A stretch of DNA of 64,000 bases, from contig CAJOEI010000003.1 in NCBI GenBank assembly GCA_905233465.1, forward strand, positions 1 through 64,000, read 5' to 3'. Origin of the DNA: an uncultured Bacteroidaceae bacterium. Its GTDB lineage: Bacteria > Bacteroidota > Bacteroidia > Bacteroidales > Bacteroidaceae. Below are positions 7 to 47,065 of this stretch, piece by piece (the first letter of the stretch is position 1; the number at the start of each line of letters is the position of its first letter). The notes beneath the pieces were generated by a model that was given only the letters and a program-made list of their open reading frames with translations, was not told the origin of the DNA and did no database searches. A program made the position numbers and the translations under genes.

Positions 7-786
7 CTATTTCATCAGCACGCGGTCGCCACAGCGACGGGCGAGTTCTTTCTGTGCTGCCTTGGCCTCGCCTATGGCTTGCATAACCTCCTGCAGACGG
101 TTTCTGTCGGCCATAGCTTCGAGGCTGCGCAGCTGCTGCATCAGCGATGATATGCGCTCCTCGATGATGGCCAGTTTGTAGTCTGTCATCAGATGGGGTA
201 CCAGATCCACAAGACGCTCTTCCTCTGTCTCGATGGTCTTCACACGGCTGTGAATCTTGCTCAGCGTCTCATTGTCGTGTGCCAACTCGTTGGCAATGCG
301 GGCTATCTCAATGTCGGGATGGTTCTCGAAGTAGCGGTCGGCACGGAAGCCCTCTTCGCCGCCATGCTCCACGGCTTCATCCAGGATGCGGGCGTAGATG
401 GGCGTACGCAGGCTGATGTCATCCTCATCGAGCGAGAAGCGTATGAAGTCCGTAACAGTGAGCTGTCGGGGCTGACCTTGCTCGTCCTCCACAGTGCACA
501 TCACCTTCTCCCCATGACGTATCACCATCTGCATGAGAGCCCGTTCCTTGCGTTGGAAGAGGGCGGCCCCACCCCCGGCCCCTCCCCTGTTAGGGAGGGG
601 AGAGGGGAGTGGTTCGACAGGCTCACCATGAACTGGTGTGAGGGGTGTGTCGCACCGGAGGCGGATGCGCACGGTGCGTCCTGCTGTGGCGGCGATGTAG
701 CCTTGGCGTATGTCGGCCTTGGAGGTGGCCATGCGCTTGTAGTCGTCGCTGAGGACGAGGAACTTGCGCTCTATTTCATAATGCAC
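7..786 (-). CDS. In-frame chimera: CYTH N-terminus + GC-rich repeat + DnaG primase C-terminus
   Basis: The 259-residue ORF has three parts. Residues 1-44 (MHYEIERKFLV ... GRTVRIRLR) match the start of CYTH/triphosphate-tunnel proteins. Residues ~45-73 (HGEPVEPLPSPLPNRGGAG) are the translation of a repeat also found elsewhere in this window. Residues ~74-259 (FQRKERALMQMVIRHGE ... LSKIHS ... EEERLVDLVPHL ... GDRVLMK) resemble the C-terminal helicase-binding part of Bacteroidetes DNA primase. The rest of the CYTH domain (the acidic/basic tunnel strands) and the primase zinc-finger and TOPRIM core are both absent, so neither activity should survive. The DnaG identification rests on recalled family patterns. 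It is either a real repeat-mediated rearrangement or a repeat-collapsed assembly join. It should not be annotated as a functional CYTH enzyme or primase. Confidence 0.75.
   Translation of the reverse strand: MHYEIERKFLVLSDDYKRMATSKADIRQGYIAATAGRTVRIRLRCDTPLTPVHGEPVEPLPSPLPNRGGAGGGAALFQRKERALMQMVIRHGEKVMCTVEDEQGQPRQLTVTDFIRFSLDEDDISLRTPIYARILDEAVEHGGEEGFRADRYFENHPDIEIARIANELAHDNETLSKIHSRVKTIETEEERLVDLVPHLMTDYKLAIIEERISSLMQQLRSLEAMADRNRLQEVMQAIGEAKAAQKELARRCGDRVLMK
562..632 (-). repeat. GC-rich palindromic element inside the CYTH/DnaG chimera
   Basis: On the minus strand the core reads CTCCCCTCCCTAACAGGGG followed by AGGGGCCGGGGGTGGGGC. It is preceded by an 18-20 bp tag (ATGGTGAGCCTGTCGAACC) that recurs at 43951-43969. 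The element is translated in frame and marks the exact junction between the CYTH-like and DnaG-like parts. Confidence 0.85.
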
Positions 787-1237: not shown

Positions 1238-2347
1238 TTATTCTCCTCCAAACTGCATGAGGTATGCTTTGATGAAGGGGTCTATCTTGCCGTCCATGAC
1301 TGCTGTGACGTCTGATGTCTGGTGTCCGGTGCGGTGGTCCTTGACGCGTCTGTCGTCGAAGACGTAGGATCGTATCTGTGAGCCCCATTCTATTTTCTTC
1401 TTTCCGGCCTCGACCTTGGCTTGTTCCTGCATGCGATGCTGCAGTTCCTTGTCGTAGAGCATGGAGCGCAGGAGTCGTAGTGCGTTCTCCTTGTTCTTGG
1501 GTTGGTCGCGTGTCTCGGTGTTCTCGATGAGTATCTCCTCTTCCTCGCCGGTGTAGGGGTCTTTGTACTGATAGCGTAGGCGCACTCCGGACTCGACTTT
1601 GTTGACGTTTTGTCCTCCTGCACCGCTGCTGCGGAAGGTGTCCCATGAGATGCGTGCGGGTTCGATGTTGACGTCAATGGTGTCGTCGACGAGTGGTGTG
1701 ACGAAGACGCTGGCGAAGCTTGTCATACGCTTGCCTTGTGCGTTGTATGGTGAGACGCGCACGAGTCGGTGTACGCCGTTCTCGCCCTTGAGGTAGCCGT
1801 AGGCGTATTCGCCGATTATCTCGAGTGTACATGACTTGATGCCGGCGTCGTCGGCTTCCAGGAGGCTGCTGACGACGCATCGGTAGCCGTTCTGCTCGGC
1901 CCATCGCATGTACATGCGCATGAGCATCTCTGCCCAGTCCTGTGCCTCGGTGCCTCCTGCTCCGGAGTTGATCTTGAGGACTGCGTCCATGGGGTCTTCT
2001 TGCTGCCGGAGCATGTTGCGGAGCTCGAGTGCTTCGAGTGCTGCGGTGCAGCGTGCGTAGATGTCGTCGACTTCCTGCTCGGTGACGAGTTGTTCGCGAT
2101 AGAAGTCGAATGCTGTGGCGAGTTCGTCGGTGAGTGTGCGAACTTCGGCGTAGTCGTTGAGCCATTTCTGTAGGCTCTTGACTTTCTTCATCTGCTCTTC
2201 TGCGCGCTTGGCGTCTTCCCAGAAGTCGGGAGCCTGTGTGCGCAGCTGTTCTTCCTCGTACTCCATCTGTTTTGCTGGGATGTCGAGGTAGCGGTGGAGT
2301 GCTGCGGTGCGCTCTTGTATATCCTTGAGTTGTTCGGTTGTTATCAT
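1238..2347 (-). CDS. prfB: Peptide chain release factor 2
   Basis: RF2 recognises UGA/UAA stop codons and triggers peptide release on the ribosome. From MITTEQLKDI the protein is 369 residues. The catalytic GGQ motif lies at about 244-246 (SGAGGQNVNK) and the codon-recognition loop reads SPY at about 199-201 instead of the classical SPF. NSGAGGTEAQDW is also typical. I chose the ATG at 2347 rather than the ORF-track start because the upstream 13 residues are not family-like. The frame is continuous through the region (HRYL-DIP) where many bacteria have the programmed CUU-UGA frameshift, so autoregulation by frameshifting is absent. The gene follows the acyl-CoA synthetase by 48 bp and may be co-transcribed with it. 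Confidence 0.97.
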   Translation of the reverse strand: MITTEQLKDIQERTAALHRYLDIPAKQMEYEEEQLRTQAPDFWEDAKRAEEQMKKVKSLQKWLNDYAEVRTLTDELATAFDFYREQLVTEQEVDDIYARCTAALEALELRNMLRQQEDPMDAVLKINSGAGGTEAQDWAEMLMRMYMRWAEQNGYRCVVSSLLEADDAGIKSCTLEIIGEYAYGYLKGENGVHRLVRVSPYNAQGKRMTSFASVFVTPLVDDTIDVNIEPARISWDTFRSSGAGGQNVNKVESGVRLRYQYKDPYTGEEEEILIENTETRDQPKNKENALRLLRSMLYDKELQHRMQEQAKVEAGKKKIEWGSQIRSYVFDDRRVKDHRTGHQTSDVTAVMDGKIDPFIKAYLMQFGGE

Positions 2348-2395
2348 ATATTTAGTTGTGTTCGCTGTGAACAGCGACATACTCAACGTGGTTGG

Positions 2396-4204
2396 TTACT
2401 CGGCATACATCGCGTCAATTTGTGCTTTGTAGTTCTTGGCGATGACGGGTCGTTTGATTTTGAGTGTGTTGGTGAGTTCGCCTCGCTGCATGGAGAATGG
2501 TTCCGGGAGTAGTGTGATGCATTTGACTTGCTCGTAGTGTGCGAACTCCTGCTGTAGGGTCTCAATGCGGTGCATGACCATTTGGTTGACGAGTGGGTTG
2601 CTGCACAGTTGCTGTCGGTCTTCAAATGCTATGCCGTTGTCTGTAGCCCATTGCTCGAGGAGTTTGTAGTCAGGAATGACGAGTGCTGACACGAACTTGT
2701 GTTCGTCGGCTATGACGGCCACTTCATCGATATATCTGTCTACGACGAACTTGGACTCGAGTGTCTGTGGGGATATGTACTTGCCGTTGGAGGTCTTGAA
2801 GAGATCCTTGATGCGGTCTGTGAGGTAGAGTTCTCCGTCCTTGATGTATCCGCAGTCGCCTGTGTGGAACCACCCGTCCTCGTCGAAAGCCTGGGCTGTG
2901 ATTTCGGCTTTGCGGTAGTAGCCTCGTGTGATGGTATCGCCCCGCAGGAGTATCTCATTCTGTTCGCCGAATTTGATGTCTATGCCATCGAGGACACGTC
3001 CCACGGAGCCGATGCTTGCGGGTGAGTGATGCCAGTCGCAAGACACTGTGGCGGTGGTCTCGGTCATGCCGTAACCGGCCGTCATGCGTATGCCTACGGA
3101 ATGCACGAACTCCTCTATGGCTGGCGGGATGAATGAGCCAGCTGTGGGGAAGAAGTTGGCGCGTTCGAGGCCGAGGCGTTTCTTAAGCAGTGATAGTATG
3201 GTGCGCTCGTAGAAGGCGTATTTGAGTTTGAGTGCCATCGGTGGCACGAGTCCCTTGAGACGATATTCGACGTTGTAGCGTCGGCCCACGGAGAGGGCGT
3301 CGAGCATGAGTTTGCGTTGCATGGGGCTGCTGCTGCCAATCTTCTCCTGCACGCCGCTGTAGACCTTTTCCCAGAAGCGCGGCACGGCGGCCATGCATGT
3401 GGGGTGTACCTCGCGCAACGTCATCTGTATGTCTTGAGGACGGAGGTTTATGGCCAGCTGGCAACCGCGTGAGAGGCACCAGTAGCTCCAGGCGCGTTCG
3501 AAGACGTGGGTAAACGGCAGGAAGCACATGATGACATCCTTCTCCGTCAGGTCCATAATCTTGTCGTTGGCAGGAATGGCAGCGGAATACATCCGCTGTG
3601 TAATCATCACACCTTTTGACACACCTGTGGTGCCGCTGGTGTATAGTATGTTGATGAGGTCGTCGGGTTGGACGGCCTCGTTGCGGCGGATACGCTCGGC
3701 ATCATTGTCGAGGCTCTGCCCCATGGCAAGGAACTCCTCGAAGGTCATGGATACCTGATCGCGCTCGTTGCGCTGCACGGTGGGGTCGAAGATTATGAGG
3801 CGTTCCAGCGTGGGGCACATCTTGAAGACACGGAATGCTGTGTTATACTGATACTGCTCTCCAACAAATACAAAGCGCACCGATGCGTCGTTAATCATAT
3901 ATTGAATCTGCGCCTCGCTGCTTGTGGCATAGAAAGGTATGCTCACGGCCCTGATGCCGTATGCTCCGAAATCCACGCATACGCCTTCGGGCTTGTTCTG
4001 CGTGAAGACGGCGATGTTCTCCTGTTCGGCCACGCCGAGTGCGAGCAATGCACGCGAGACCTGTGCCACGCGTTCGGAGAACTGTGTCCATGTGATTTCG
4101 CGCCATGTTGATGTGGCATAGTCGCGATAGCTTAAGGCCACTTTCTGACCATATACTTTGGCCTGCTCGTGTATGAGCTGCCCCAAATTACATTTCTGAA
4201 GCAT
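2396..4204 (-). CDS. AMP-forming long-chain fatty acid-CoA ligase
   Basis: A 602-residue member of the adenylate-forming superfamily, which converts a fatty acid, ATP and CoA to acyl-CoA via an acyl-AMP. The P-loop-like signature YTSGTTGVSKGVM is near residue 190, the YGMTETTATVS motif is in the middle, and the hinge/ATP region (GWFHTGDCGYIKDGELYLTDR) is near the C-terminus. Length and motifs match the long-chain (FadD/FAA-type) branch. A TATTTTTG -7 element 23 bp before the start gives it its own promoter, and prfB follows closely. Chain-length preference cannot be read from the sequence. Confidence 0.93.
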   Translation of the reverse strand: MLQKCNLGQLIHEQAKVYGQKVALSYRDYATSTWREITWTQFSERVAQVSRALLALGVAEQENIAVFTQNKPEGVCVDFGAYGIRAVSIPFYATSSEAQIQYMINDASVRFVFVGEQYQYNTAFRVFKMCPTLERLIIFDPTVQRNERDQVSMTFEEFLAMGQSLDNDAERIRRNEAVQPDDLINILYTSGTTGVSKGVMITQRMYSAAIPANDKIMDLTEKDVIMCFLPFTHVFERAWSYWCLSRGCQLAINLRPQDIQMTLREVHPTCMAAVPRFWEKVYSGVQEKIGSSSPMQRKLMLDALSVGRRYNVEYRLKGLVPPMALKLKYAFYERTILSLLKKRLGLERANFFPTAGSFIPPAIEEFVHSVGIRMTAGYGMTETTATVSCDWHHSPASIGSVGRVLDGIDIKFGEQNEILLRGDTITRGYYRKAEITAQAFDEDGWFHTGDCGYIKDGELYLTDRIKDLFKTSNGKYISPQTLESKFVVDRYIDEVAVIADEHKFVSALVIPDYKLLEQWATDNGIAFEDRQQLCSNPLVNQMVMHRIETLQQEFAHYEQVKCITLLPEPFSMQRGELTNTLKIKRPVIAKNYKAQIDAMYAE

Positions 4205-7892: not shown

Positions 7893-9145
7893 CAACATCC
7901 GAATTCATCAGCACGCATAAAACAGACGACGTCCATCGGTTGGCTCTTTCCAAGCCTCCGGCGGGCGTCGACCTGCATTATGCCCTGCAGCAGATTGAAG
8001 GCTGGCAGTTGGCTTGCAGCAAGCTGCCCACATGGGCTGCGACCGACGACATAAAGTATCCGCCACGGATAGCGCTTGAACAATGCTCAAGCGAAGCGAC
8101 GGCTCAATACAAGACACGGTTGCTGGGTGACGCAGCCCCTCCCCCGACCCCTCCCCTGTTAGGGAGGGGAGCCTTCTGCAATGCTTTTGCTGACCTCACG
8201 GGAGGTTTAGGCGTGGATTTCATGGCGCTTGCTCCATGCTTTGGTGTTGCAACGTATGTCGACAGACAGACGATTTTGGTTGATGCGGCGCGTCACAACG
8301 CTTCTCAGCTGTTAGGTGGCGCAACTATGGAACGCCTCAATTTCGTTTGTGCCACAGCAGAAGATTATTTACGTGAAATGGAGCCTGTCGACGTGCTCTA
8401 TTTGGATCCTGCACGGCGCGATGCAACCGGACGTAAGGTGGCTCTCATTGCAGACTGCAGTCCTGATGTAGCTCTACTGCATGATTTGTTGATGCAACGT
8501 TCACGCCGATGCATCATCAAGCTGTCTCCGATGCTTGATATTACGGCTGCCCTGAGCGTTTTGCCAGCAGCCGTTGAGGTGCATGTAGTGAGCGTTGACG
8601 GGGAGTGTAAGGAAGTGATAGTTGTGCTTGACAGGGAGCATCATGATATCGTCATCCACTGTGCAATGATATCAAAGGGGGGAGGTCGGGAGGTGGCTCT
8701 TTTCAGTTTTACACCTGCCGAGGAAGCTGTCTCGTCGCCGTTGCTTGCAGACGGGATAGACGAGTACGTCTACGAACCAGATGCGGCGTTGCTCAAGGCT
8801 GGTGCCTTTCGCAGTGTGGCATTGCGTTATGGCCTGCTCAAGCTGGCAACTGATACACATCTATATACTTCATCTGCACTACTGCCAGAGTTCCCAGGCC
8901 GCTGTTGGCGTGTGGTGGGGCATTGTGGGTTTGGTAAGCGAGAATTGCGCTCCATGCTTGCTGGTGTGCGTTCAGCGGAGATTGGTGTTCGTGGCTTTCC
9001 TGGCAGCGTAGCCAGCCTGAGACGTCAGCTGCACTTGTCTGACGGTCCAGATGCCCATCTCATCGCCACTACACTCGCCGATGGCAGCCATCGCTTGTTA
9101 CGTGTTGAGCTTGTGCAAAAAAGCTCCGCCGCACTGTGTGTATGA
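7889..9145 (+). CDS. Class I SAM-dependent methyltransferase with THUMP-like domain, carrying an in-frame repeat insert
   Basis: A 418-residue protein resembling the Bacteroidetes THUMP-like methyltransferase group, presumed to act on RNA. The TTG start, overlapping the previous stop, gives the family-like N-terminus (FISTHKTDDVHRLAL). The SAM-binding loop is FADLTGGLGVDFMAL and the catalytic-type motif is VDVLYLDPARRD. Between KTRLLGD and FADLTGG sits AAPPPTPPLLGRGAF, the translation of the GC-rich palindromic element and foreign to the family. It lies just before the SAM loop, so activity may be affected, although the frame is intact to the normal C-terminus. The last codons also encode the terminator of the opposing gene. 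Confidence 0.85.
   Translation: MTTSEFISTHKTDDVHRLALSKPPAGVDLHYALQQIEGWQLACSKLPTWAATDDIKYPPRIALEQCSSEATAQYKTRLLGDAAPPPTPPLLGRGAFCNAFADLTGGLGVDFMALAPCFGVATYVDRQTILVDAARHNASQLLGGATMERLNFVCATAEDYLREMEPVDVLYLDPARRDATGRKVALIADCSPDVALLHDLLMQRSRRCIIKLSPMLDITAALSVLPAAVEVHVVSVDGECKEVIVVLDREHHDIVIHCAMISKGGGREVALFSFTPAEEAVSSPLLADGIDEYVYEPDAALLKAGAFRSVALRYGLLKLATDTHLYTSSALLPEFPGRCWRVVGHCGFGKRELRSMLAGVRSAEIGVRGFPGSVASLRRQLHLSDGPDAHLIATTLADGSHRLLRVELVQKSSAALCV
8132..8173. repeat. GC-rich palindromic element inserted in the methyltransferase gene
   Basis: CCCCTCCCCCGACCCCTCCC-CTGTTAGGGAGGGGA is the reverse orientation of the copies at 562-608 and 36594-36634. It interrupts the coding sequence in frame. Confidence 0.85.
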
Positions 9146-24648: not shown

Positions 24649-24654
24649 ACCTTG

Positions 24655-24725
24655 TTGGGCTACCCGGACTCGAACCAGGAAAGGCAGGACCAGAATCTGC
24701 AGTGTTACCATTACACCATAGCCCA
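24655..24725 (-). tRNA. tRNA-Gln (anticodon CTG), copy 1
   Basis: A 71-nt cloverleaf: acceptor TGGGCTA/TAGCCCA, D arm GTGTAATGGTAACAC, anticodon arm GCAGA-TTCTGGT-CCTGC with anticodon CTG (one A-C mismatch at the stem end), T arm CCTGGTTCGAGTCCGGG. CCA is not encoded. It is identical to the second copy. Confidence 0.95.
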
Positions 24726-24801
24726 ATGTGTTTCACGATATATAGATTCAGGGCAAAATAAACTTATGAAACGATTAAAGAGTGTCTTAACTTATCCTTT
24801 G

Positions 24802-24872
24802 TTGGGCTACCCGGACTCGAACCAGGAAAGGCAGGACCAGAATCTGCAGTGTTACCATTACACCATAGCCCA
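24802..24872 (-). tRNA. tRNA-Gln (anticodon CTG), copy 2
   Basis: Identical 71-nt sequence to copy 1, 76 bp further along. It is promoter-proximal, with a TACTTTTG element at 24892-24899. Confidence 0.95.
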
Positions 24873-24891
24873 ATCTTCGGATTTGCGGCTG

Positions 24892-35298: not shown

Positions 35299-35308
35299 TG
35301 CCGAGTGT

Positions 35309-35403
35309 CGTTATATCGTTATACCGTTATACCGTTATATCGACATATCCGTGAAATCGTGAAATCGTGAAATCGTAAAATCGTGAAATTGTAAAATCGT
35401 AAA
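35309..35403. repeat. CGTTATAC and GTGAAATC/GTAAAATC arrays before dprA
   Basis: The gap holds CGTTATATCGTTATACCG units, then TGAAATCG/TAAAATCG nonamers running directly into the dprA ATG. No other gene is seen. Confidence 0.85.
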
Positions 35404-36540
35404 ATGTCAGAGCTTCTCTATCGCATGGCGATGACGCGCCTCATGCCTATGGCATCGAGGGAGCAGCGTATCATTCTGAATGAGCTGGGCTGTGCAACCG
35501 AGGTTTATGCCCATCGTCATGAGCTCCACCAGCTGCTCAGCCGCTCTGCATGGCGCGTGGCCGATGCCTTGGCTGACATGGACAGCGTGTTGGGGCGTTG
35601 CCAGGCAGAGATAGACTATTGTCGCAGTCACAACATCAGCATCCTCACTATCGGTGATGACGACTATCCAGCCCGCCTTGCCCAGGCCGATGACGCCCCT
35701 CTGGTGCTCTACGCACTCGGCCTGGGCGCGCGTCAGGTGCTCAATGCCCCGCATGTCGTCAGCGTCGTCGGCACACGACGTTGCACCGAGGCCGGCCGCC
35801 AGCTCTGCACACGCTTTGCTGCTGAGCTCCAGCAGCTCTTGCCCGACACAGTCATCATCAGCGGCCTGGCCTACGGCATCGACATCGCAGCCCATCGCGG
35901 CGCGCTGCAAGCCGGCCTGCCCACTGTGGCAGTACTTGCTCACGGCCTCGACCAGATATATCCACGCATGCATCGCGACACAGCCGTGCAGATGCTCCAG
36001 CAAGGAGGTCTCTTAACAGAATATATGAGCCAGACCACTCCCGACAAAGTCAACTTCGTACAGCGCAATCGCATCGTAGCAGCATTGGCAGATGTCGTTC
36101 TTGTCGTCGAAAGCGCCGCAAAGGGCGGTTCGCTCATCACGGCCAATATGGCCTTTGACTACGGACGCGATGTCTGCGCCTTCCCCGGACGTGTCACCGA
36201 TGCAGCATCGGCAGGCTGCAACATGCTCATACGCTCCACGCGTGCAGCACTCGTCCAGTCTGCAGCCGACCTCATAGAGACCATGCGCTGGCAACCGCAG
36301 ACACACACTCCCGACGGCATACAGACAGAGCTCCTGCCGCAGCTTACCGACGACCAACAAGCCATCATCAACGCCCTCCGCGACACAGACGAGGCCACGC
36401 TCACAGACATCTGCACACGCCTCCAATGGCCAGTGACACGGGTCATGCCCTTGCTCTTCGAGATGGAGATGAAAGGCCTCCTCCTCGCCCTCCCCGGCAA
36501 TCGCTACAAGAGCGCGGCGACGCCACAGTTGAAAGTTTAA
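35404..36540 (+). CDS. dprA: DNA-processing protein DprA
   Basis: A 378-residue protein that loads RecA on incoming ssDNA in transformation. An N-terminal HhH/SAM-like region precedes the Rossmann core (VVSVVGTRRCTEAGRQLCT ... IISGLAYGIDIAAHRGAL ... TVAVLAHGLDQIYPRMH ... NRIVAALADVVLVVESAAKG GS), and a C-terminal DML1-like winged-helix domain ends the protein (about 315-372). All core motifs are present, so it should be active. The 3' end abuts a TTTAAAG array (AGTTTAAGGTTGAAAGTTTA). Confidence 0.94.
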   Translation: MSELLYRMAMTRLMPMASREQRIILNELGCATEVYAHRHELHQLLSRSAWRVADALADMDSVLGRCQAEIDYCRSHNISILTIGDDDYPARLAQADDAPLVLYALGLGARQVLNAPHVVSVVGTRRCTEAGRQLCTRFAAELQQLLPDTVIISGLAYGIDIAAHRGALQAGLPTVAVLAHGLDQIYPRMHRDTAVQMLQQGGLLTEYMSQTTPDKVNFVQRNRIVAALADVVLVVESAAKGGSLITANMAFDYGRDVCAFPGRVTDAASAGCNMLIRSTRAALVQSAADLIETMRWQPQTHTPDGIQTELLPQLTDDQQAIINALRDTDEATLTDICTRLQWPVTRVMPLLFEMEMKGLLLALPGNRYKSAATPQLKV

Positions 36541-36789
36541 GGTTGAAAGTTTAAAGTAATTGTCCATTGTCCATTGTCCATTGTCCTCCCTTCTCCTCTC
36601 CCCTCCCTAACAGGGGAGGGGGCGGGGGTGGGGCTTGTCCATTATCCCTTTTCCATTAAATGGTGTTAATTTTTCCCTCTTCCCTTATGCCCCTTTAACA
36701 TAATTCATTACTTTTGCAAACACTTTAAACTTTAAACATTAAACTTTAAACATTAAACTTTAAACTGCGGCCGCAGGCCGCGTCCAATT
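36541..36789. repeat. Composite intergenic repeat: heptamer arrays, GC-rich element, GC palindrome
   Basis: In order: TTGAAAGTTTAAAG units, GTCCATT units (36560-36585), the GC-rich palindromic element CTCCCCTCCCTAACAGGGGAGGGGG-CGGGGGTGGGGC (36594-36634, full copy), a promoter, TTTAAAC units (36721-36766) and the palindrome GCGGCCGCAGGCCGCG. The GC-rich copy is the intact intergenic reference for those inserted in genes. Confidence 0.85.
36709..36716 (+). promoter_or_regulatory. Bacteroidetes -7 element (TACTTTTG) for gpmI
   Basis: TACTTTTGCAAAC lies 73 bp before the gpmI ATG. The leader would consist of the TTTAAAC array and the GC palindrome. Confidence 0.6.
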
Positions 36790-43497: not shown

Positions 43498-43932
43498 TTA
43501 GAAGAAATTGAAGAAGAAGAACACTGCTGCCCATGTTCGGGGCACGCCCTTGGCGCTGCCCATGCTGCTGTTGTTGCGGTCGCGCACGGTGCCGTCGCTC
43601 TCTATGCGTCCGATGGTGGAGTTGTTGCGGTCGCGCACGGTGCCGTTACTCTCTACGCGTCCGATGGTGGAGTTGTTGCGGTCGCGTATGGTGCCGTCGC
43701 TCTCTATGCGTCCGATGGATGAGTTATTTCGGTCGCGTATGGTGCCGTTACTCTCTATGCGTCCGATGGTGGAGTTGTTGCGGTCGCGCACGATGCCGTT
43801 ACTCTCTATGCGTGCAACTTGTGAGTTGTTGGCGTTGCGGATATCCTGGGCCCGGGGAGAAGGGGATGCGGCGGACATGGATATGGAAATAATAAATAAT
43901 AAATAATAAATGATAAATAAGCGACTCTTCAT
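43498..43932 (-). CDS. 5-fold beta-flower type repeat protein
   Basis: A 144-residue exported protein. After the signal peptide (MKSRLFIIYYLLFIISISMS) come five 17-residue tandem units of the form IGRIESNGTIRDRNNSS (51-bp DNA repeats), each predicted to form one beta blade. The C-terminus MGSAKGVPRTWAAVFFFF is the usual end of this family. Function unknown. The start is placed at 43932 since residues upstream come from repeat DNA. Near-identical DNA units make copy-number change by slippage likely. Confidence 0.8.
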   Translation of the reverse strand: MKSRLFIIYYLLFIISISMSAASPSPRAQDIRNANNSQVARIESNGIVRDRNNSTIGRIESNGTIRDRNNSSIGRIESDGTIRDRNNSTIGRVESNGTVRDRNNSTIGRIESDGTVRDRNNSSMGSAKGVPRTWAAVFFFFNFF

Positions 43933-43939
43933 AATCAAT

Positions 43940-44081
43940 TTTACGATTTGGTTCGACAGGCTCACCATAAATCAACTTTAAACTTTAAACTTTCCGCTCG
44001 ACCTCTGGTCGCTTGCCATAGCAAGCGCTCGGCTTTGCCGCTTTGCTCTGCAAAGAACTTTCAACTGCGGCGCAGCCGCGT
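43940..44081. repeat. Composite intergenic repeat including the 25-bp element, copy 2
   Basis: It contains the GGTTCGACAGGCTCACCAT tag (43951-43969, also at 611-629), TTTAAAC units, TTCCGCTCGACCTCTGGTCGCTTGC (43992-44016), small GCAAGC/GCTTGC and GCAAAG palindromes, and TTCAACTGCGGCGCAGCCGCG at the transporter 3' end. Confidence 0.8.
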
Positions 44082-45818
44082 CTAAACGATGGAGTAGAGG
44101 AGTAGGATGATGAGCTGGGCCGTGAGGATGCGCAGGAACATGCAGAGGGGATAGACGGTGCTGTAGCCCACGGCTGGCGCGTCGTTGTTGGCGGTCTGGT
44201 TGGCGTAGGCCAGTGCGGGCGGGTCAGTGGTGGCACCGGCGATGAGGCCCATGAGAGTGAAGTAGTTCATCTTGTAGCGCAGGCGTGCCAGTACACCTAT
44301 AATTAATATAGGTATTACGGTGATGAGGAATCCTGCCCACACGTATGTGAGGCCGTCGCCCTCGGTCACTGTGTTCCAGAATGTGGCTCCCGCCTTGATG
44401 CCCACGGATGCGAGGAAGAGTACGAGTCCGAGCTCTCGCAGCATGAGGTTGGCTGATGTGGTGGTGTAGCTGACGAGATGGAGTTTGTATCCGAAGCGTC
44501 CGATGAGGATGGCGATGATGAGCGGTCCGCCGGCGAGGCCGAGCTTCACGGGTGTGGGCACGCCAGGCAGTGCTATGGGCATCATGCCGAAGACGATACC
44601 GACGACGATGCCGATGAAGATGGCGCTGAGGTTGGGGTGGTCGAGGCGCTTCACCTCGTTACCCATGACACCTGCCATGCGGTCGACAGCATCCTCGGGT
44701 CCTACGCACACGAGCTTGTCGCCAATCTGTATGCGCAGGTTGCGGTCGGCGAAGAGGTTCATGCCGTTGCGGTGGATGCGTGTGACGTTGACACCATAGA
44801 CCGAACCGAAGTGCATCTGTCCGAAGGTCTTGCCGTTGACTTCGGGCTTGGTCACCAAGATGTTCTTGGACACCATCTTAACATCTTGCTCCTCCCACTC
44901 GACATTATCCACAGGTCCTATGAAGGCTGAGATGGCTTCCCAGTCGTCTTCGGCGCAGGTGATGTACATCTGGTCGCCGACGTTGACGATGATGTCGCGG
45001 TTGGGGATGAGGACGTGCCCGTTATGCAGGAAACGCGAGCAGACGAAGTTGCGCCCGATGAATTCGCGGATTTGGAGTATGCTCTTGCCGTTGAGGGCTT
45101 TGTTCTCGGCGCGGAGTGTCATGCGGTGGGGCTTGGCGTGGGGATTCTCATTCATCTCACGCTCGATGTCCTCGGCCTCTTTCTTGAGGCTGATGCCACA
45201 GATGTAGCGCACGGCAATGGTGGCTCCGATGATGCCCACCACGCCAAGGGGATAGGCACAGGCGTAGCCCGATGCTATCTGAGGGAGGCCCACCCCCGTC
45301 CCCTCCCCAAGGGAGGGGAGATTTTTGTAGATAGTTGCCACGGCCTCGGATGCGGCACCAAGGCCGGGAGTGTTGGTGATGGCGCCGCAGAGCACACCGG
45401 TCATCATCGAGAGGTTCCAGACGTTGTCGCCGCCCTTGATGTCTGGGTTGTAGAAGAGGACGAAGTAGAGCACCAGCATCGTGACGACATTCAGGGCCAC
45501 GATGCCCATAGCAAGCATGTTGGCTGTGATGCCGCCCTTGGCAAAGCTCTCGAAGAAGCCCGGTCCCACCTGCAGACCTATGCAGTAGACGAAGAGGATG
45601 AGGCCGAAGTCCTGAACGTAGTTGAGCACCTCGGGCGTGCCTGTGAAGCCGATGTGTCCGGCGAGGATGCCAGCAAAGAGGACGAATGTGACTCCGAGCG
45701 AGATGCCGAAGATCTTGAAACGGCCAAGGGCTATGCCGGTGGCGATGACCAACGAATAGAGCACCACGATGTGGGCTATTGAGTCGGTGTTGGTGAAGAG
45801 GTTAATGAGCCAATCCAT
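44082..45818 (-). CDS. YidE/AspT-type transporter with two RCK_C domains, carrying a repeat-derived insert
   Basis: A 578-residue membrane protein of the aspartate-alanine-exchanger/YidE-YbjL group: two hydrophobic halves (about 10-190 and 400-578) flank two cytoplasmic TrkA-C domains (about 205-290 and 300-385). Each half carries motifs such as [19 protein letters not shown] and [19 protein letters not shown]. In the first half [20 protein letters not shown] contains the translated GC-rich element ([12 protein letters not shown]), in frame, where the family has a short linker. Substrate unknown. Confidence 0.88.
45283..45320. repeat. GC-rich palindromic element inserted in the YidE-type transporter
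   Basis: On the minus strand CTCCCCTCCCTTGGGGAGGGG is followed by ACGGGGGTGGGCCTCCC; it matches the other copies and keeps the frame. Confidence 0.85.
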
Positions 45819-45828
45819 GGTTTTATTT

Positions 45829-46003
45829 TACGATTTTACGATTTTACGATTTTACGATTTTGGTTCGACATCTCGACATCTCGATATAACGTTAAACGTT
45901 ATTACGATCCTATGTAATTCACAATTCATAATTCACAATGCACAATTGGGCTGCGCGGTGACTTTCAATGTTCAATGCTCAATGTTCAATGTTCAATGTT
46001 CAA
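45829..46003. repeat. Repeat arrays upstream of the transporter
   Basis: TTTACGATT units (45829-45862), CGACATCTCGATATAACG-type sequence and TTCAATG units (45965-46003) fill the gap between aroB and the transporter. Confidence 0.8.
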
Positions 46004-46015
46004 TGAATTCTCACC

Positions 46016-47065
46016 TTAGTTCTCTCGGTAGTAGTCGAGAGCCTCGCGGATGTCGTCGGGAGTTGCTGTCTGGTTGATGCGTATGTCGCCGACTGCGGCG
46101 AGGAGTGTGAAGTTGATTGTTCCGGCGGTGTTCTTCTTGTCGTGGCGCATGAGGTCGATGAGACTGTCGTAATGCTTGCATCCGAAGCTGAAGTGGCCAT
46201 AGTTGTCTCGCACGAAGGCCTCGACCTGATGCAGGCACTGTGTGGGGAAGCCGCAGCGTGTGGCGGCTAAGTACAGCTCAGGTATGAGGCCGTAGGCCAC
46301 AGCGTAGCCGTGCAGGATTGGCCTGTTCTGGGCCAGTGCAAAGCTCTCGAAGGCGTGTCCCACGGTGTGCCCGAGGTTGAGGGCTTTGCGTATGCCGTGC
46401 TCATGCGGATCCTCGGTGACAATGCGTTGCTTCACTGCTACGCTGCGTGCCACCATGTCGGCGAGTGCGGTGAAATCGACGTTTTCGAGGTCGAAACGCA
46501 GTAATTCGGCCAGAGTCTGCTCGTCGCTGATGAGGCCGTGCTTGAGCATCTCGGCATATCCGCTGCGTATGTTCTCAGTGTCCAACGTGCGCAGGAACTG
46601 CGTATCGAGGATGACTGTGTGGGGTGTGTTGAACACCCCGATTTCGTTTTTCAGGCCTCGGAAGTTGATGCCCGTCTTGCCTCCCACGCTGGCGTCGACC
46701 ATCGAGAGCAGCGTTGTGGGCACATTGACGTATGCCATGCCGCGCTTGAATGTCGAGGCAGCAAAGCCACCGAGGTCGGTCACCATGCCACCACCTATAT
46801 TAATAAGTAGTGAGTGGCGTGTGGCGCCGCCGTCCTGCATGGCAGCCCAGACGTGTGTGAGCGAATCGAGTGTCTTGGCTGCGTCGGTGGGCGGGATGGT
46901 TATCATCTGTGCCGCTGACAGGCACGCAACGTCGCACAGGCGCGGCCAGCAGCACTCGAGCGTGGTCTGGTCGGTGAGGACGAAGACGCGGTCGGGAGTG
47001 ATGGCGCTGACGGCTGCAGTGATGTCGGCTGCGATGTTGCGGCTTATGATGACGTTTTGATTCAT
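46016..47065 (-). CDS. aroB: 3-dehydroquinate synthase
   Basis: A 349-residue NAD- and Zn-dependent enzyme of the shikimate pathway, converting DAHP to 3-dehydroquinate. The nucleotide region GGGMVTDLGGFAASTFKRG, the VPTTLLSMVDASVGGKTGIN segment and LNLGHTVGHAFES (zinc His) are intact. A -7 element ends only 10 bp before the ATG, so its mRNA should be nearly leaderless. It is divergent from topB. Confidence 0.96.
   Translation of the reverse strand: MNQNVIISRNIAADITAAVSAITPDRVFVLTDQTTLECCWPRLCDVACLSAAQMITIPPTDAAKTLDSLTHVWAAMQDGGATRHSLLINIGGGMVTDLGGFAASTFKRGMAYVNVPTTLLSMVDASVGGKTGINFRGLKNEIGVFNTPHTVILDTQFLRTLDTENIRSGYAEMLKHGLISDEQTLAELLRFDLENVDFTALADMVARSVAVKQRIVTEDPHEHGIRKALNLGHTVGHAFESFALAQNRPILHGYAVAYGLIPELYLAATRCGFPTQCLHQVEAFVRDNYGHFSFGCKHYDSLIDLMRHDKKNTAGTINFTLLAAVGDIRINQTATPDDIREALDYYREN

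Follow-up and report, generated by a model that had tools for sequence, protein, structure and literature searches.

A CYTH–DnaG reading frame at a contig edge is very probably an assembly chimera joined at a GC-rich palindromic repeat

An open reading frame at the edge of a contig from an uncultured Bacteroidaceae bacterium starts like a CYTH protein and finishes like the DnaG primase, which raises the question of whether the two genes were joined in a genome or by an assembler. The window analyzed here comprises the initial 64,000 bases of contig C3, which belongs to a metagenome-assembled genome (MAG) of 2.54 Mb in 57 contigs with a completeness of 84.8%; the frame, at positions 7–786 of the minus strand, encodes 259 amino acids and is open throughout its translation. 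A preliminary description had offered two interpretations, namely a fusion created in the genome by repeat-mediated recombination, or a join made by an assembler between two loci that each carry a copy of the same element; the evidence presented here favors the second and not the first.

The predicted protein consists of a CYTH N-terminus, a translated GC-rich palindromic unit and a DnaG C-terminal domain, and this order, recognized in the preliminary description, is borne out by intact homologs in congeneric genomes, which identify the DnaG (TIGR01391) and CYTH (PF01928) families as the sources of its two halves. Within the N-terminal part (residues 1–49; 640–786, minus strand), which derives from an inorganic triphosphatase-like gene, residues 4–49 are 78% identical to the intact 170-residue CYTH protein of congener G002, which scores 40.8 bits against PF01928. 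Compared with the CYTH family, the window ORF has only about the first third of the domain, so that it reaches 11.5 bits over profile positions 2–58 of 179, below the Pfam cut-off of 23.2. At the other end, residues ~58/66–257 share 52–55% identity with the C-terminus of the 712-residue DnaG of G010 (E = 1e-68), itself a 450-bit match to the TIGR01391 dnaG model; across the DnaG proteins of G010, G019 and G047, identity of this half is 52–56%, and the last ~183 residues (7–558, minus strand) are assigned to the C-terminal domain of the primase. Relative to the DnaG family, the ORF is without the zinc-binding, DNAG_N or TOPRIM parts, none of which gives a Pfam or NCBIfam match in it and all of which are present in the G010 orthologue, in agreement with the absence of the zinc and TOPRIM core reported before. 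The earlier identification of this half as a DnaG C-terminus also stands, whereas the label helicase-binding derives solely from where the piece lies, as it has no match to any Pfam model.

Each half lies in a recognizable genomic context. The CYTH part is accompanied by its native neighbor prfB (release factor 2; 1238–2386, minus strand), followed by a long-chain acyl-CoA synthetase-like gene (2396–4204, minus strand), and the same CYTH–prfB–acyl-CoA synthetase order is found in about 20 congeners. The stop codon of the DnaG part falls 6 bases short of the edge of C3, and this edge, GCTTTTCTATT (1–11, no strand assigned), matches the end of contig C50 exactly in inverted orientation, 11 bases being the longest match between the two ends; since folding of the C3–C50 edge site as a hairpin used three assumed joining bases, the 11-base match alone is taken as data. 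C50 carries a saccharopine-dehydrogenase-like gene (SDH) and recA, the gene order in G010 is dnaG–SDH–recA, and in G016 and other congeners dnaG does not adjoin SDH. From the 11 bases and the gene order in one congener, we infer that C50 and C3 would be adjacent.

The join itself is made of repeats. Its translated segment (residues ~47–76, within CDTPLTPVHGEPVEPLPSPLPNRGGAGGGA; 559–648, minus strand) contains one GC-rich palindromic unit, CCCCACCCCCGGCCCCTCCCCTGTTAGGGAGGGGAG... (566–612, plus strand), whose other copies are recovered by DNA search of the same genome with E-values down to 4e-14; there are about 40 copies in the MAG, including those at 8132–8171 and 36592–36634 of the window, and the coincidence of the junction with an element that recurs nearby is thus confirmed. 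On the CYTH side of this unit is a second short repeat, GTTCGACAGGCTCACCATGAAC (612–633, plus strand), with another copy at 43951–43972, where none is expected by chance, and further copies of 23–25 bases and 92–96% identity on C2, C4, C20, C25 and C35; a member of the GTTCGACAGGCTCACCATGAAC family is also in frame in an oxidoreductase-like ORF (L149:8807–8829). The GC-rich unit is close to CCCCACCCCCGACCCCTCCCCTGTTAGGGAGGGGAG and occurs singly or in inverted pairs separated by a spacer; a set of 43 unit copies included 8 close pairs, as befits the short GC-rich palindromes, often in inverted pairs, of REP/REPIN elements. Compared with shuffled sequences, the single unit at the join forms a weak hairpin (z = −1.7), and the paired copies in the RF3 and Era genes form one long hairpin each (z = −8.6 and −6.8, respectively). 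The pattern CCCCTCCC-N(2-9)-GGGAGGGG has 57 sites in the MAG and about 90–104 in G003, G015 and G018; it is absent from several congeners and from 19 of 19 searched genomes of other families. Three other contig ends stop at the unit, namely the end of C6, the start of C43 and the end of C44, which is about 20 times the expectation of 0.14 copies near contig ends (P about 4e-4). As candidates for missing parts of dnaG or CYTH these ends were rejected, since what adjoins them is intergenic sequence, an SbcC-like gene and a SusD-like gene; the SusD-like frame at the end of C44 (L147:915–1412; recognized by eye, with no Pfam match) stops at the element and is perhaps another element-related break.

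Other repeats of the window include short tandem arrays of 7–8-base units (TTCAATG, AAATCGTG, TTTAAAC and TTTTACGA) at 908–998, 35305–35422, 36719–36787 and 45816–46019, a 51-base tandem repeat in five overlapping copies of 68–100% identity at 43519–43842, and two identical 76-base copies at 24652–24727 and 24799–24874 with the appearance of a putative tRNA gene.

Beyond the join, the element lies in frame within conserved genes of the MAG, including those for RF3 (L136:2406–2505), Era (L132:3938–4040), CarA (L133:1769–1809), AsnB (L133:4080–4116), FolC (L141:1964–2001), UvrD/PcrA (L139:1524–1560) and a TonB receptor, among others. When 30 congeners were searched for RF3 and Era, both flanks matched in most of them with few bases in between, indicating an empty or nearly empty site; filled here and empty in most congeners examined, the RF3, Era and CarA sites resemble those of Rickettsia palindromic elements. 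In G002 this RF3 site is occupied by a similar insert of another variant, and the copy in the CarA–CarB linker is common to G015, an independently assembled species, with one residue changed. Because of the empty sites, the RF3 variant and the shared CarA–CarB copy, sequence comparison indicates that the in-frame insertions in conserved genes are real and not assembly noise, and copies in this and other genomes uphold the suggestion that essential genes can accommodate the element in frame. Translated element-like peptides are also found in the DnaG linkers of G003, G015, G019, G040 and G041, and the CYTH protein of G002 has extra length in the loop where the join falls. Given the in-frame inserts in conserved genes and the DnaG linkers of congeners, a copy is likely to reside in the DnaG linker and the CYTH loop of the true genes of this strain. 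As a separate observation, a single frame of about 950–1010 residues encodes CarA together with the first half of CarB in roughly ten species of the genus, those of the MAG and G015 being joined through element copies; the CarA–CarB frame is about 1450–1520 residues long in six other species, and about five have separate frames.

The remainder of the two genes was sought throughout the 2.54-Mb MAG, which yielded no match to the DNAG_N/primase core (PF08275), no DnaG C-terminus besides that of the window ORF, no second CYTH or CYTH C-terminus, and no reciprocal product joining a DnaG core to a CYTH C-terminus; nor did either missing part turn up as a broken contig. For the genes that precede dnaG in relatives, the MAG offers no close match, and of those that adjoin CYTH or dnaG in relatives, Dgt was located on C5 and a U32 peptidase on C9, neither of them beside CYTH. 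The lack of these partners has to be put down to the MAG being incomplete (84.8% complete). Outside it, 48 congeners and a further 32 families of the order were compared, and in none do both halves share a frame, consistent with the premise that neither family normally contains the other: CYTH matches fall in frames of about 157–282 residues, and nearly all DnaG matches in frames of about 640–760. Moreover, CYTH and DnaG matches are on different long contigs in G011, G012 and G016, so that a short local deletion between neighboring genes cannot give the join and is ruled out.

It is therefore with considerable confidence that we regard the ORF as an assembly chimera, with CYTH (beside prfB) and dnaG being separate, unlinked and complete genes in the cell. 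This reading is preferred because the halves never share a frame in the genomes compared, because the CYTH half retains prfB and the acyl-CoA synthetase gene as native neighbors, and because the DnaG half ends at a contig edge that matches the contig carrying SDH and recA; it is also preferred because the MAG is without a primase core, another DnaG C-terminus or another CYTH, because three further contig ends stop at the unit, and because the DnaG linkers of congeners hold element-like peptides and the CYTH loop of G002 is lengthened. The true CYTH gene would probably contain an in-frame copy of the element in the loop after RIRLR, and the true dnaG an in-frame copy of the same element in the linker that connects the polymerase core with the C-terminal domain; a short-read assembler would then have crossed between these copies, so that the 5′ portion of CYTH ran on into the 3′ portion of dnaG while the core of the primase and the C-terminus of CYTH stayed unassembled or unbinned. 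Two observations weigh against this reading, namely that neither missing part is seen on a broken contig and that dnaG lies apart from SDH in G016 and others. With its junction at the repeat and each half in its own native context, the locus supports the assembler join that had been proposed.

A real fusion of CYTH to the C-terminal domain of DnaG, made by recombination between in-frame element copies and accompanied by a complete dnaG in the unassembled part of the genome, is by comparison improbable. Such recombination is possible with an element of about 40 copies that lies in frame within many genes, the ORF is uninterrupted and 15% of the genome may be missing, but the sole DnaG C-terminus of the assembly appears to be in its native 3′ context; with no other DnaG C-terminus or core in the MAG, the event would have broken the only dnaG found, its reciprocal product is absent, and no congener shows it. 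The full dnaG that this interpretation places elsewhere thus gains no support from the assembly, which has neither a second DnaG C-terminus or CYTH nor a primase core. Less likely still is a DnaG end contributed by another member of the genus co-assembled from the same sample: although that end is just 49–56% identical to the ten nearest congener sequences and no DnaG was found in G002 or G018, both close to this MAG by prfB and RecA, such a source would leave the MAG without any dnaG of its own, and the edge of C3 has its match in C50, a contig of the same bin.

As a probable assembly chimera, the ORF should neither be annotated as a gene nor cited as evidence of domain fusion. An element that is present in high copy in some species of the genus and extends essential proteins would at the same time make assemblers join unrelated genes with the reading frame unbroken; the warning that it confounds MAG annotation fits this evidence, in that an in-frame join mimics a gene fusion, and apparent fusions in such MAGs need to be checked for repeats.

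The closest known parallel to the join is misassembly of the inter-locus (translocation) type, which arises at dispersed repeats when metagenomes are assembled from short reads, a problem addressed by metaMIC (PMC9661791). The locus is like it in that a repeat links two native gene contexts in a fragmented MAG and is also where other contigs end; it differs in having the repeat in frame in both parts, and therefore the join resembles a clean gene fusion. By-eye inspection of folded copies revealed no GTAG or CGTC tag beside the hairpin, and the element is therefore not filed as a GTAG/CGTC REP; a Y1_Tnp/RAYT transposase (PF01797), considered as its driver, gave no match in this incomplete MAG. 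Our literature search returned nothing specific on this kind of element in Bacteroidales. Its closest counterparts are the Rickettsia palindromic elements and intragenic REPs (PMC3733652), with which it shares a short palindrome, single or in inverted pairs, inserted in frame in conserved genes, and from which it differs in sequence and in its host, an uncultured genus of Bacteroidales. With species that have and species that lack an insert at the same site, "selfish DNA in proteins" of the Rickettsia type would become testable in a gut lineage.
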